Program-made: the position numbers and the translations under genes | The notes under the pieces: generated by a model | What the model saw: the letters and a program-made list of their open reading frames with translations, nothing else | What the model was told of the DNA's origin: nothing | The model's database searches: none | DNA from: an uncultured Clostridia bacterium | GTDB taxonomy: Bacteria; Bacillota; Clostridia; Oscillospirales; Ruminococcaceae | Assembly: GCA_947630845.1 (NCBI GenBank) | Contig: CANRJB010000003.1 | Span: 62,001-126,000 of the forward strand | Direction of reading: 5' to 3' | DNA: 64,000 nucleotides | Shown here: positions 8,392 to 47,516 of the stretch, in pieces | Layout: every line of letters begins with the position of its first letter | Numbering within the stretch: the first letter of the stretch is position 1

Positions 8392-8506
8392 GCCCTTTCC
8401 GGTATTTTTCAGAAAACTATCCGAAAGCTGTCAGCACAGACCAGCAGCTTTCATGCGCATTGCCTATCATCCTGCCGGGGAAGGACGACAGAAAACAGCA
8501 GACATT

Positions 8507-8540
8507 CCCTGACGATCTGATGTCGGTCAGATCATCAGGG
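8507..8540 (-). repeat. 34-nt 3'-UTR hairpin element, copy 1
   Basis: On the minus strand, CCCTGATGATCTGA pairs with TCAGATCGTCAGGG over 14 positions around the hexaloop CCGACA, with one U-G wobble. It begins 24 nt after the stop of the P-loop gene. No T-run follows, so it is not a standard terminator. A second copy at 39318-39351 has the same length, stem and placement. Confidence 0.8.
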
Positions 8541-8564
8541 ATGCGCAGCAGTATCAGAAATGGT

Positions 8565-8969
8565 TCAGAGATACTTGGTCACAGATTCCGGCAGATCAGC
8601 ATTGTCAGCCGATACCGTAAAGGTGACGAGAGTATCGTTTCCGGTGAGCTTGTCCAGTCTTGCGAGCATTGCACCCAGCTCATCGTAATCCCTGCCGCCG
8701 ATCTTCAGGATGCCGTCGATGAAGATCTCCTTGATGTCATAGTTGCCGGCAAGCATTCCTGCGAGGAATCCGTAGAAATTCTCATAGCCGGTAATGTCAA
8801 ACTGCTCCACACCGACCCAACGTACCTTATAGCTGATGGAGCGGCGCAGTGTTTCACCCTTTTCGATGCAGACAAGGCAGCCGTTGGTTTCTGCCACAGC
8901 AGTGTTGATGAGTTCAATGAGGGTCTTGGTCTTGCCAGAGCCCTTCTTGCCTGTAATCAGTTTAATCAT
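8565..8969 (-). CDS. small P-loop ATP-binding protein
   Basis: A 134-residue protein with an N-terminal Walker A motif (MIKLITGKKGSGKT). A possible Walker B strand, EIFIDGILKIGG, lies near residue 85. Homologues in clostridia are sometimes labelled as twitching-motility (PilT) proteins, but the length and the lack of other PilT motifs make that label weak; I would call it a stand-alone P-loop NTPase of unknown role. The ATG at 8969 has AAAGGAG upstream. It follows pgi by 43 nt, presumably on one transcript, and ends before the 34-nt hairpin. Confidence 0.82.
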   Translation of the reverse strand: MIKLITGKKGSGKTKTLIELINTAVAETNGCLVCIEKGETLRRSISYKVRWVGVEQFDITGYENFYGFLAGMLAGNYDIKEIFIDGILKIGGRDYDELGAMLARLDKLTGNDTLVTFTVSADNADLPESVTKYL

Positions 8970-9012
8970 GATATGACTCCTTTCCATGCCCTGCGGCATG
9001 ATAAAATAGCGA

Positions 9013-10350
9013 TTAGTGACCGAGCTTTGCTTCGAGCGCAGCTTTTGCGTTCTCATAGCCGGGTTTGCCGAGCAGAGCGAACATATTGGACTTATAGCTC
9101 TCCACACCGGGCTGGTTGAACGGATTCACACCGAGTACATAACCCGAAACAGCGCATGCCTTCTCAAAGAAATAGATCATATAGCCGACGCTGTATTCCG
9201 TGGTATCCTCCAGTTCCAGAATGACCTGCGGCACGCCGCCCTCCGTATGGGCAAGGATCGTACCTTCAAATGCCTTGCGGTTGACGAGGGACATATTCTG
9301 TCCGCAGAGGAAGTTCAGACCGTCCAGATTCTTTTCATCCTTTTCAAGGAAGAGATCCTGCTTCGGTTTCTGGATATCCACAACTGTCTCAAACATCAGC
9401 CGTGCGCCCTGCTGGATGTACTGCCCCATGGAGTGCAGGTCAGTCGAGAATACCACCGATGTCGGCAGCAGACCCTTACCGTCCTTTCCTTCACTTTCCC
9501 CGAAAAGCTGCTTGTACCACTCGTTCATGAGTGCAAAGCTTGGGTCATAGGCAACGAGCATTTCCGCAGATTTTCCCTTTCTGTAGAGGATGTTGCGGAT
9601 GGCAGCGTACTTGTAGCAATCGTTGCTGTCAAATTCTGCCATATAGTCAGCTTCTGCCTTGGCAGCACCTTCCATGAGCTTGTCAATGTCGCATCCTGCC
9701 ACGGCGATCGGCAGCAGACCTACAGCAGTCAGCACAGAGAACCGTCCGCCGACATCATCCGGAACGACAAATGTCTCATAGCCCTCCGTATCGGACAACT
9801 CCTTGAGAGTCCCCTTCTTCTTGTCTGTGGTGGCAAAGATATGGTGCTTTGCTTCCTCTTTGCCATACTTATCCTCAACAAGTTTCTTGAACACACGGAA
9901 TGCTAAAGCAGGCTCTGTGGTCGTGCCGGACTTAGAGATGACATTGACCGAAATATTTTTCCCCTCACAGATGGAGAGTACCTCATTAAGATAAGTCGGG
10001 CTGATATTGTTGCCGACATAATAGATGTCGGGAGTATCTTTCTTCATATTATTGTAGAACGGGCTTTTCAGCAGTTCAATTGCCGCTCTTGCTCCGAGAT
10101 ACGAGCCGCCGATACCGATGACGATCAGCACGTCCGAATTGCTCTGTATCTTCTTTGCCGCAGCTTTGATACGGGCAAATTCCTCCTTGTCATAATCTGT
10201 CGGAAGTCGCAGCCAGCCAAGGAAGTCACTCCCCAGCCCCGTCCCGCTGTGCAGCATCTTCACAGCCGTCTCCACCTGCGGACGGATACCTGCAATATCC
10301 TCCTTACCGATGAAGCTGTCAAGATATTTGGTATTCAGTTTCAGTGCCAT
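9013..10350 (-). CDS. pgi: glucose-6-phosphate isomerase
   Basis: A 445-residue isomerase of glycolysis and gluconeogenesis, interconverting glucose-6-phosphate and fructose-6-phosphate. Seen are the sugar-phosphate-binding SIS-type segments [12 protein letters not shown] (about residue 80) and SKSGTTTEP (about 140), the glutamate region around GQYIQQG, and the C-terminal [12 protein letters not shown] with the conserved lysine. The size matches the short bacterial/archaeal-like Pgi rather than the 550-residue enterobacterial form. The start is the ATG at 10350 with GGAGG 8 nt upstream. It is driven by its own promoter. Confidence 0.98.
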
Positions 10351-18109: not shown

Positions 18110-18149
18110 ACAGAACAAACAAATGCCGTTCCCATCCGGGAACGGCATT
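18110..18149 (-). terminator. terminator of the ispH-S1 gene
   Basis: AATGCCGTTCCC and GGGAACGGCATT form a 12-bp perfect stem around a 4-nt loop; the minus strand continues TGTTTGTT. The stem core recurs in the terminator at 47483-47516. Confidence 0.85.
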
Positions 18150-29328: not shown

Positions 29329-29427
29329 ATTTTCCTCCTGTTATGATTCGTCTCCTGTTCTCTTTTCATACCGTTTCTTTCATTCCGATGGACAAAATCT
29401 ATCAGAATGAAGCCGCTGAAAGCTGCG

Positions 29428-30528
29428 TTAAGGATTTGTATCACACAGCTTTTCCCAGTTTTCCATGCTGCAAAGGAACAGTGCCTGTGTATATTCCGAC
29501 GGGTCGATCTGCACATTGCCGCTCTCTGCCATGTTCAGATTCACAATATGGATCTCGCTGTAATGCTGCAAGAGAAACGTTATCATGCAGTCCCCGAAAT
29601 CGTCCTGATAGAGCAGCAGCTTTTTGCCGTTGTCAAGATTCGTCTTGATGACGAGCTGCTCACATGGCGCACCAAGATAGAACCGATACATATCCTCCGA
29701 TAAAAGTGCCGATTCGCTGTAAATAGAATTTCCTCTGCTCCCTGAAGAACCGTCCGGGTACCATGCCGTCACCTCTGTGATATGTGCGCCCCCTTCATAG
29801 CTGTAGCAGTCAAGCACATCCGACCGGACATTCTCATACAGCGTCCGTTCATAGAGATCGCCCCGGAAATCCGTTGACAGATGCGAGATCACATATCTGT
29901 CATACGGTATGGCAGTAAAGCCCATTTTCTGAATGGCAGACTGGTAAACATAGTATGCGCCGTAGCTTGTCCAGTGCGTATCGGTGCGGTAGTAGATATA
30001 ATTGTCTTTCTGCGACTTCAGGACATTGCATGCATCAATGCAGTGTACACCGTTTACTGCTGCGTCATATACCTCTTGTATCCGGCTCGTCTGTTCGTCA
30101 CTGACCGCATTAGCCGGCAGAAGTGTCCGGTAGATCTCAGATGCCGACGGAACGAGAATCAGGAATGTCGGGATCTGCGTCTTTTCGTAAAAGTCACTGA
30201 CCGGTGCGGCAAGATCTTCTGGTGTAAGTGTATTGTCTGCCGTCAGCTTTTCGAGCAGCATTTCATCCGTGACATAGACATCCCGTATTCTCTTTTCACC
30301 AAGCAGCAGATCTGCCTGACTCTTGACCCGGAACAGCGTGTCATGGAAACCGATATGCTCTGTCAGATAAGTCTCTGTCTGCTCCGCCCATGTTCCGTTG
30401 ATCAGACCGTAGAAGGTCGGCATCGGAAAATCCGAAAGTGAGAATACATGGAACGTTTCGCCAAGCAAGATCAGATAGACCACTGCAATGACCAGTACCG
30501 TCCAGCGGTGCAGATTGTTCTGTTTCAT
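29428..30528 (-). CDS. DHHW / AlgJ-like SGNH-fold protein with altered nucleophile
   Basis: A 366-residue protein with one N-terminal helix (residues 9-25) and an extracytoplasmic domain of the DHHW type, partners of MBOAT acyltransferases in sugar O-acetylation. The motif near residue 183 reads D183-T-H-W186, as expected. The block that normally carries the nucleophile (KDSxxN) reads Q-D309-D310-F-G-D, so serine is replaced by aspartate. Family residues around it are kept (FLLQHYSEIHIVNL). AGGAGGG is 6 nt before the ATG, and the gene follows its MBOAT partner by 10 nt. Activity is therefore uncertain. Confidence 0.85.
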   Translation of the reverse strand: MKQNNLHRWTVLVIAVVYLILLGETFHVFSLSDFPMPTFYGLINGTWAEQTETYLTEHIGFHDTLFRVKSQADLLLGEKRIRDVYVTDEMLLEKLTADNTLTPEDLAAPVSDFYEKTQIPTFLILVPSASEIYRTLLPANAVSDEQTSRIQEVYDAAVNGVHCIDACNVLKSQKDNYIYYRTDTHWTSYGAYYVYQSAIQKMGFTAIPYDRYVISHLSTDFRGDLYERTLYENVRSDVLDCYSYEGGAHITEVTAWYPDGSSGSRGNSIYSESALLSEDMYRFYLGAPCEQLVIKTNLDNGKKLLLYQDDFGDCMITFLLQHYSEIHIVNLNMAESGNVQIDPSEYTQALFLCSMENWEKLCDTNP

Positions 30529-30538
30529 CCTATCCCTC

Positions 30539-31891
30539 CTACAGCCGCAGCCAGAATCCCTGCACCCGGTCGCCGTAAAGCATGGATGCCACACAGAACA
30601 GCATGAGCAGCCCATACAGCACCGGCTGAAAGACATGCAGGATCTTTCCCCATTTTGTGGAATGCAGACGCTCTGTGATGTTGCGGAACAGATCTGTTGC
30701 GATATACATGCCGATCAGCAGCAGAGCAATATAGGAGGTGAAGAAGTACACACCATGTTTGTCGATCAGCCCATTGCCGAATCCCAGCATTGCAGCCCAG
30801 ATGCTGCCGGTCTCTGACAGGGAATCCCCAAAAAACAGCACCCATACGAACTGCATCACGATCCCTGTATAAAGCATACCTGCCACGAAATTTTTCCGGA
30901 ACACTTTTTCCAGTACAAGCTGATCGAGTGTCAGCAGTACCCCGACTGCCAGTCCCCAGAGCAGGAATTGCAGTGTCAGTCCGTACCATGCCCCGATCAG
31001 AATCCACATCAGGATAAGAATTGCATATTTCTGCCATTTTTTATGTCTGCTGCCAAATAGGAAATAACGGAAGTTGGTCTGAAACCAGAGTACCAGCGTG
31101 ATATTCCAGCTCTGCATGAATCCCGTCACGGTCGAACGGAAGAAAGGCTGACTGAAATTTCTCGGAAGCTCCAGACCAAAACATTTGCCCAGTCCTCTTG
31201 CCATCTCCGAGACACCGAGCATCTCAAAATACAGATACAGCGAAAAGGTGATCGTCGTCAGCCATGCCGTCAGCATACTCATGCCATTCGTCTGCCGCAG
31301 TTCCCGGAACACATAGCCGAAAGTATCCGCCAGTACGACCTTCTCCGCCAGTCCACGGATATAGAGTGCCAACCCTTCGCTCAGATGGACAATGGAGCTG
31401 TGATTTCTCCGGATCTGTTCGCTGAATTCCAGATATGTCGTCATCGGTCCCATGTAGAGGATCGGGAAAAAAGACAGATACAGTGCCAGATGCAGCAAGT
31501 TTACAGCCGCAGGATGCCGTCCCCGGTAAACAGCGATCAGATAGCCAAGCCCCTGCAAGGTATAGATCGCAAATCCGAACGGATACAGCAGTGCAGTCGC
31601 CTCTGCATTGCGTACCCAGACCATCGCTGCCGTATGCACCACTGCTGCCGCAGCCAGCACCGCACAGCTCAGCGTCTTTTTTTCACGCCAATGCTCAAGC
31701 AGCAGCCCGATGCCATAGTCAAACAGAATGCATGCCGCAAGGTACAATACCCTCAGCGGACTGCCCCACCCATAAAAGATAAAGCTTGCTGTCAGCAGTG
31801 CCGCCTGCTTGCCCTTGTTCGGCATGAAATAATAGCACAGCAGCAGCACAGGCAGTCCTGCCACCAGAAATGTCAGCGAGGACAGGTTCAT
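30539..31891 (-). CDS. MBOAT family O-acyltransferase homologue with altered histidines
   Basis: A 450-residue multi-pass membrane protein with 10-12 helices and the MBOAT pattern (FFPILYMGPMTTYLEF, LYLYFEMLGVSEMARGLGKCFG). These proteins pass acyl groups across the membrane to a partner that O-acylates a cell-surface polymer. In AlgI and DltB the two signature histidines sit in a WH motif of the FWRRWH block and in WHG. Here the first reads W262-N263 and the second W302-Y303-G304. The ATG is 2 nt after the rnmV stop with AAGGGGGG before it. With the DHHW protein it forms a pair that looks catalytically silent. Confidence 0.87.
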   Translation of the reverse strand: MNLSSLTFLVAGLPVLLLCYYFMPNKGKQAALLTASFIFYGWGSPLRVLYLAACILFDYGIGLLLEHWREKKTLSCAVLAAAAVVHTAAMVWVRNAEATALLYPFGFAIYTLQGLGYLIAVYRGRHPAAVNLLHLALYLSFFPILYMGPMTTYLEFSEQIRRNHSSIVHLSEGLALYIRGLAEKVVLADTFGYVFRELRQTNGMSMLTAWLTTITFSLYLYFEMLGVSEMARGLGKCFGLELPRNFSQPFFRSTVTGFMQSWNITLVLWFQTNFRYFLFGSRHKKWQKYAILILMWILIGAWYGLTLQFLLWGLAVGVLLTLDQLVLEKVFRKNFVAGMLYTGIVMQFVWVLFFGDSLSETGSIWAAMLGFGNGLIDKHGVYFFTSYIALLLIGMYIATDLFRNITERLHSTKWGKILHVFQPVLYGLLMLFCVASMLYGDRVQGFWLRL

Positions 31892-39201: not shown

Positions 39202-39317
39202 TCGCCTGAGAGAAAAAAATCAATTCTTCTCTGCAAGCGATCTTAATGTGTTTATGTACACACATGCCCTATCCATTTCCGGAAAAATGAAAACGACGAT
39301 CGGATACAAATGCTGCT

Positions 39318-39351
39318 CTCTGACAACCTGACAGGCATCAGATCATCAGAG
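39318..39351 (-). repeat. 34-nt 3'-UTR hairpin element, copy 2
   Basis: On the minus strand CTCTGATGATCTGA pairs with TCAGGTTGTCAGAG around the hexaloop TGCCTG. It starts 20 nt after the maf stop. Against copy 1 (8507-8540), the second stem pair changes from C-G to U-A and two others from Watson-Crick to G-U wobbles; the loop is free to vary. Confidence 0.8.
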
Positions 39352-39371
39352 CATACCTGCGGCTATGATGC

Positions 39372-39977
39372 TCAGATCTGACCGCCCGGTCGCTTGAACA
39401 TCACCCTTGGATGTGCTACAGCCTGTTCAAACTGTTTCAGGTTTCTGGATAATGCTGCCACAGGCAGTCCCACAACATTGAAATAATCCCCCTCAATGCA
39501 TTTCACAAGCAGCGCACCCTTGCCCTGAATGCCGTATGCCCCTGCTTTGTCAAATGGTTCACCTGTGTCCAGATAGGCATCAATTTCATCATCGGAGAGC
39601 GTAAAGAAGGTGACAGCCGTTTCCACTGTAAATACAGTAGTCTGTCTGCCATGATAGAGAGAGACACCGGTCATGACAGTATGAGTCTCGCCGGAGAGTT
39701 TCCGGAGCATGCGGAAGGCATCCTCTCTGTCTGCCGGCTTGCCCATGATCTCGTCATTCAGCACAACGACCGTATCGCAGCCGATCACGATATCTTCCGG
39801 GAATTGTGCAGCTGCGATACTTGCTTTCAGGTCGGCAAGAAAGGCAGCCGCCATCTCCACAGGCATCCCCTCCGGCAATGTTTCCTCCGCATCGACCGGA
39901 TGCACCGTAAACTCCTCCGTGATCAGCCGCAGCAGCTCCTGCCGTCTCGGTGAACCGGATGCAAGGATCAGGCTCAT
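39372..39977 (-). CDS. maf: Maf family nucleotide pyrophosphatase
   Basis: A 201-residue Maf protein, a house-cleaning pyrophosphatase for dTTP/UTP or modified nucleotides that also limits septation. SLILASGSPRRQELL opens the protein; VIGCDTVVVLNDEIMGKP and the TGVSLYHG and EPFDKAGAYGIQG motifs follow. The ATG has AAGGAG upstream and overlaps the tautomerase stop by 4 nt. The 34-nt hairpin element lies in its 3' untranslated region. Confidence 0.95.
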   Translation of the reverse strand: MSLILASGSPRRQELLRLITEEFTVHPVDAEETLPEGMPVEMAAAFLADLKASIAAAQFPEDIVIGCDTVVVLNDEIMGKPADREDAFRMLRKLSGETHTVMTGVSLYHGRQTTVFTVETAVTFFTLSDDEIDAYLDTGEPFDKAGAYGIQGKGALLVKCIEGDYFNVVGLPVAALSRNLKQFEQAVAHPRVMFKRPGGQI

Positions 39978-47482: not shown

Positions 47483-47516
47483 AAAATGCCGTTCCGGATC
47501 TCCGGGACGGCATTTT
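47483..47516. terminator. bidirectional terminator between mraY and the PBP gene
   Basis: AAAATGCCGTTCCGG and CCGGGACGGCATTTT form a nearly perfect 15-bp stem with a 4-nt loop. Flanking A's and T's serve both strands. The core AATGCCGTTCC/ACGGCATT is shared with the terminator at 18110-18149. Confidence 0.85.

Follow-up and report, generated by a model that had tools for sequence, protein, structure and literature searches.

The 34-nt hairpin that occurs twice in the window (the whole stretch of 64,000 nt analysed here) is, with a probability of about 0.88, the stem at the 3' end of a mobile element that is MITE-like and non-autonomous. The hairpin comes last in a larger, asymmetric element made up of several hairpins, which measures about 140-170 bp when complete and represents a new MITE family in the genus; bacterial MITEs as a kind are already known. 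If the two window copies are decayed right modules of such a mobile repeat, they are therefore not a signal belonging to their genes.

Both hairpins were found where the original prediction had placed them, at 8507-8540 (copy 1) and 39318-39351 (copy 2), starting 24 and 20 nt past the stop codons of the minus-strand ORFs 8565-9107 and 39372-39977, respectively. Also as predicted, the two copies are identical at 24 of 34 positions, the second stem pair is C-G in one copy and U-A in the other (a compensatory change), and all other differences in the stem read as G.U on the minus and as A.C on the plus strand. The minus-strand RNAs fold with -23.2 (copy 1) and -19.1 kcal/mol (copy 2), as good a value being reached by none of 200 shuffles of either copy. 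The ORF upstream of copy 2 is maf, encoding a Maf-like protein (PF02545, E 2e-62), with orthologues in 34 of the 37 other genomes of the genus. The gene before copy 1 has orthologues in 33 of these 37; its earlier label as a P-loop gene finds no backing in Pfam, where it matches no family. None of the Rfam families reached its gathering score in the whole window, and the 11 matches returned for six element loci at E<=5 (best E 0.017) all remained below this score as well.

The hairpin had been described as a 34-nt element, but conserved flanks extend it on both sides. Since these flanks are asymmetric in 24 aligned copies, each copy has an orientation. The element is bounded by short inverted ends (TACYRATYC...GATTRGTA). 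In its left module, two hairpins are enclosed by an outer stem, in which the left end pairs with a copy of the right end located internally; its right module consists of two smaller hairpins followed by the variable terminal hairpin. Many copies keep one module only. The 26 full-length copies span 138-170 nt, which is too short for a transposase gene, and the GC content of 0.52-0.53 is near that of the genome. Predicted folds are exceptionally stable: a 169-nt full-length copy from the congener G006 reaches -84.9 kcal/mol versus -41.0 for shuffles (z -10.3), and a diverged 186-nt copy from G020 reaches -97.8 versus -48.2 (z -11.9). In an alignment of 11 left modules, 9 of 21 pairs carry double compensatory changes.

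For searches we used a covariance model built from the two window hairpins only (R1) and models of the right (R2) and left module (R3), places for the latter two being counted at E<=0.01. In the genome of origin (G000; 2.03 Mb, 91.8% complete), the R1 search, which the original prediction had proposed as its check, gave more than chance: 45 rows with E values from 7.3e-10 to 0.032 correspond to 24 places, the nearly palindromic core being matched on either strand. R2 identified at least 35 places and R3 at least 41 (together at least 70, six of them with both modules); these and the following copy counts are lower bounds, as the best 114-150 candidates were scored per genome, and the weakest R3 rows may include chance matches. 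Of the two outcomes that the original prediction had named as refuting its RNA element, a lack of further copies did not occur, but random orientation did. Both neighbouring genes are on the minus strand, the element of copy 1 on the plus and that of copy 2 on the minus strand, so that relative to its gene copy 1 is antisense and copy 2 is sense. The full right-module match of copy 1 covers 8472-8562 (plus strand; G000:C3:70472-70562), the R2 score being 68.6 bits in the element sense, antisense to the neighbouring gene, versus 40.3 bits on the minus strand. For copy 2, the decayed match covers 39296-39386 (minus strand; G000:C3:101296-101386), with 57.4 bits in the sense of maf versus 23.5 bits on the plus strand.

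In 11 congeners at least 90% complete, R1 gave no match at E<=1. Besides absence, divergence of the sequence contributes to this result: three of the 11 (G001, G014 and G020) carry diverged relatives of the element detected by R3. The left module was found in at least 13 of 38 genomes of the genus, the genome of origin included, with at least 15 rows each in G001 and G014, at least 8 in G020, at least 7 in G008 and fewer in the remaining positive genomes. Among the best candidates scored, strong R2 copies in relatives were confined to G009, G006, G033 and G001, because the right module has diverged most. Most of 19 weak R2 loci in relatives (L067-L079 and L082-L087) were rejected by eye as terminators, coding or unrelated sequence; L087 was judged real, L068 and L084 possible. 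An exact pattern, CTGATGATCTGAN{3,12}TCAG, searched in 61 genomes, matched once in G007 and twice in G034 outside the genome of origin. We took these matches as chance since the conserved flanks are absent and the sequence looks coding-like by eye. A BLAST search with one full-length copy against 148 genomes of the family returned the genome of origin only, plus two marginal short matches (E 0.008-0.009), and a 170-nt copy had no match among phages and plasmids. The open-licence literature searched yielded no account of a repeat like this from Ruminococcus or Ruminococcaceae.

The ends of the element speak for mobility. In seven genomes the end pattern TNATACYRATYCYC matched 84 times versus once for the reversed control, some matches being without a visible element, and outward-facing pairs of ends lie about 160 bp apart, e.g. 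in loci L285, L287, L289 and L319. In 35 of 43 copies, ATACC is preceded by the same base that follows GGTAT (100,000 shuffles: mean 14.3, maximum 28); the comparison fails in the other eight. Here the flanking bases of full-length and left-only copies were read by eye, and six of 49 were dropped owing to an unreadable right end. The matching flank base, together with the T before and the A after it, therefore indicates a 3-bp TNA duplication around TACC...GGTA. One copy is nested: a 72-nt left module, flanked by TCA on each side, interrupts the terminal hairpin of a second copy within the loop, and deleting the insert plus one TCA restores the host hairpin, albeit imperfectly.

The window itself harbours a third copy, a stand-alone left module at 29367-29448 on the plus strand (R3 64.6 bits, G000:C3:91367-91448), with both inverted ends present and TCA on each side (TCA, TACCGTTTC...GGATTTGTA, TCA). 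The minus-strand ORF 29428-30636, encoding a DHHW protein, ends inside this copy, which thus supplies its stop codon. Copies 1 and 2 retain only a recognisable right end, without a clear left end or complete target duplication. As read from the sequence, copy 1 has a decayed left end, its right end GTA at 8551-8553 and a presumed target copy TCA at 8554-8556; the right end GTA of copy 2 lies at 39307-39305.

Further repeats share the ends of the element. In G014, a different repeat is nearly one long palindrome of about 164 bp, bounded by the inverted ends of the element and by TNA-type flanks (L285 1842-2006, L287 1692-1855 and L289 1514-1677), which suggests several MITE subfamilies common to one mobilising enzyme. 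A repeat in G001 with the same ends contains a GC-rich CCCCCTCCCC-type hairpin (L319 2462-2627; L321 from 2515 onward). Around position 2627 of L283, also from G014, the left end of an element runs on into another repeat-like, GC-rich stretch (CCCCTCC...GGGGAGC).

Orthologous loci were compared in 29 relatives for each of the two genes adjoining copies 1 and 2, i.e. 58 loci or 60 with the two own ones. R2 found nothing below E 0.69 in the 58 loci, matching only the two own copies, and R3 found nothing at E<=1 in all 60. Behind the copy-1 gene, the next promoter follows the stop codon after 26-101 nt in 29 of 29 relatives versus 173 nt in the genome of origin. Behind maf the distance is 11-55 nt versus 170 nt, as seen in those 10 of 29 relatives where a promoter could be recognised, the remaining 19 not being comparable. 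Judged from these sequences, both window loci are element-free in relatives, i.e. empty sites that indicate insertion, in a comparison made across species. The proposal of a dedicated 3' signal is hard to reconcile with such loci.

Another view holds that the hairpins are bidirectional or Rho-assisted transcription terminators grown alike through convergence. As strong hairpins between genes, eight of the 24 own copies between convergent ones, they would suit such a role. But there is no T-run after copy 1 or copy 2, which confirms the original statement that they are not T-run terminators, and copy 1 sits upstream of the ancestral-type terminator of its gene, which is still present beyond the element (8413-8452, minus strand; stem GAAAGCTG...CAGCTTTC, then TTTT). 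In relatives (e.g. G010, G016, G027 and G005) a similar terminator directly follows the stop codon of this gene. As conserved asymmetric flanks and target duplications are not expected of convergent terminators either, we regard this explanation as very improbable. Two further hairpins in the window, at 18122-18149 and 47483-47516, lie at different loci and have a common stem core, ATGCCGTTCC / GGGAACGGCAT or GGGACGGCAT; they are possibly related terminators.

A closer rival to the mobile element is an RNA element that acts in cis and is under selection at the 3' ends of mRNAs, where it would serve stability, RNase III processing or protein binding, dispersed copies having been recruited and kept. 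Its strength lies in gene context, as 20 of the 24 copies border on the 3' end of one gene or more, and in one copy that two species have at a corresponding position behind a cyclophilin gene (L020 and L060; 58 and 53 nt after the stop codon). Here, identity is 81% over 1.3 kb upstream, the only side compared as the own contig ends downstream, and three stem differences between the species are compensated. The two species may have this copy from one old insertion, perhaps kept for some use. Against a role in cis, however, stand the element-free orthologous loci, the mixed orientation of the copies and the four copies between divergent genes; besides these and the eight in convergent gaps, eight lie in tandem gaps, and four could not be assigned (contig end, or a scored gene missing to one side). 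That the copies have a fixed sense with respect to genes, as originally supposed, is at odds with both the divergent gaps and the R2 scores of copies 1 and 2. All but one of the 24 copies lie outside scored ORFs, the exception (L026) overlapping the 5' end of a called ORF.

The gathering of copies at gene 3' ends is helped by the target itself, because TNA covers TAA and TGA, and a frame hit at its stop codon thus remains closed. In 9 of 39 copies, the triplet that was duplicated terminates a coding-scored frame, as do 24 of the 411 TAA and TGA triplets located up to 200 nt away (p 0.0009); with looser criteria, which include poorly coding-scored frames, this applies to 17 of 38 copies.

The stems themselves do covary, in line with a cis-acting RNA. 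Over the 24 own copies, 94.8% of cells pair, four pairs show double changes versus 1.4 expected (as high in 4 of 500 shuffles), and the covariation score is 0.150 versus 0.122 (reached by 1 of 500). Hence the original claim of a recurrent structured element with compensatory changes holds for 24 copies; the part of it that attributed the pattern to selection on RNA only is not established. If the stems were maintained solely as RNA from one strand, that strand should show more G.U pairs than A.C mismatches and should fold better. The first expectation seemed borne out by a ratio of 36:17 in the element sense of 34 own hairpins (p 0.013), but this bias is lost without the loop-closing pair (23:14, p 0.19). 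Nor was a difference in MFE between the strands found in 26 full-length copies (p 0.82) or the 34 own hairpins (p 0.26). In sum, we consider a cis-acting RNA element unlikely.

Recent copies, in which cells share ancestry so that counts of changes are to be read accordingly, point in the same direction. In 19 of them, one-sided changes are balanced (12 G.U versus 13 A.C), and 34 of 35 two-sided changes stay Watson-Crick, several being transversions. Nine copies from G020, G008 and G001 show 31 of 32 two-sided changes as Watson-Crick, many of them transversions, and one-sided changes of 4 G.U and 11 A.C, which favour neither strand; ten near-identical G014 copies add three more two-sided Watson-Crick changes, including A-T to C-G. 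Given strands that do not differ in MFE and balanced one-sided changes, selection on RNA rather than DNA, as proposed initially, does not follow. The stem changes in recent copies fit upkeep of a DNA palindrome at least as well as RNA selection. As a tentative and rather doubtful mechanism, the stems might be kept near-perfect DNA palindromes by hairpin or cruciform template-switch copying or by a transposition that reads the hairpin, and covariation would then arise without RNA selection.

As to the enzyme that moves the element, we used two transposase profiles, PF01797 in the genome of origin and PF13340 in 38 genomes. The former (Y1_Tnp, RAYT) bears on REP/BIME-type palindromes moved by a RAYT tyrosine transposase, which the hairpins resemble as small imperfect palindromes in intergenic regions, present in dozens per genome. 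Yet PF01797 has no match in the genome of origin at E<=0.001, whereas 5 of 14 control genomes match, and the element has inverted ends and a TNA duplication. REPs also usually exceed 100 copies per genome, according to PMC2817692, and intergenic palindromes are what our element shares with REP/BIME-RAYT systems. Of the explanations weighed here, this one appears the least credible.

A 3-bp TNA target duplication is shared with the IS427/IS1031-type transposons of the IS5 family. Unlike a system of that family, though, the genomes G000, G001, G014 and G020 yielded no DUF4096 (PF13340) in the profile search of 38 genomes, and no IS with the ends of the element was found; DUF4096 occurs once in G008 and in 13 of the 38 genomes overall. 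In the loci examined, pairs of inverted ends 500-3200 bp apart enclosed no transposase. L028 (39-933, G000:C1; 895 bp) was considered as an autonomous element and rejected, as it encloses a rhomboid-like membrane protein and not a transposase; it consists of two partial elements facing opposite ways, each bordered on its outer side by TAA, and is the sole pair with a target duplication and matching ends.

Taken as a mobile element, the repeat would probably be mobilised in trans by a DDE-type transposase recognising its ends, an enzyme that neither PF01797 nor PF13340 brought to light. Insertion duplicates a 3-bp TNA target, as the matching flanks and the nested insertion show. Copies at stop codons or gene 3' ends would be harmless and survive selection, and old ones would decay, as copies 1 and 2 presumably did to right modules.

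Among known repeats, pneumococcal BOX elements are modular (boxA, boxB and boxC). Compared by description and not by sequence, they resemble our element as modular, structured, intergenic repeats with nested copies; what differs is that inverted ends and a target duplication are demonstrated for the element here. BOX elements cluster and nest with RUP and SPRITE, according to PMC10969869. The bacterial MITEs reviewed in PMC2229807 and PMC10969869 (Correia/NEMIS, ERIC and RUP) are alike in their length of about 100-200 bp, inverted ends and target duplication. They likewise lack room for a transposase, are multi-copy and largely intergenic, form stable stem-loop transcripts and occur nested in one another. 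On the other hand, our element differs in its end sequence and TNA duplication, in being an array of five hairpins whose two modules also occur alone, and in having no known partner transposase as far as the two profiles reach. Nor is it AT-rich, which MITEs typically are according to PMC10969869.

The element gives a bacterial genus a MITE family that is both structured and modular. Because TNA targets include stop codons and changes in the stems come in matched pairs, this mobile repeat acquires 3' positions and compensatory changes with no dedicated function and so mimics a conserved 3' RNA element, and genome scans reading covariation as proof of RNA function would misinterpret it. Should upkeep of DNA palindromes be general, covariation in bacterial repeat families alone would be no proof of a functional RNA. 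Copies may still change mRNA 3' ends in their hosts, by analogy with NEMIS, copies of which are reported to do so in PMC2229807, and they could serve as strain markers.
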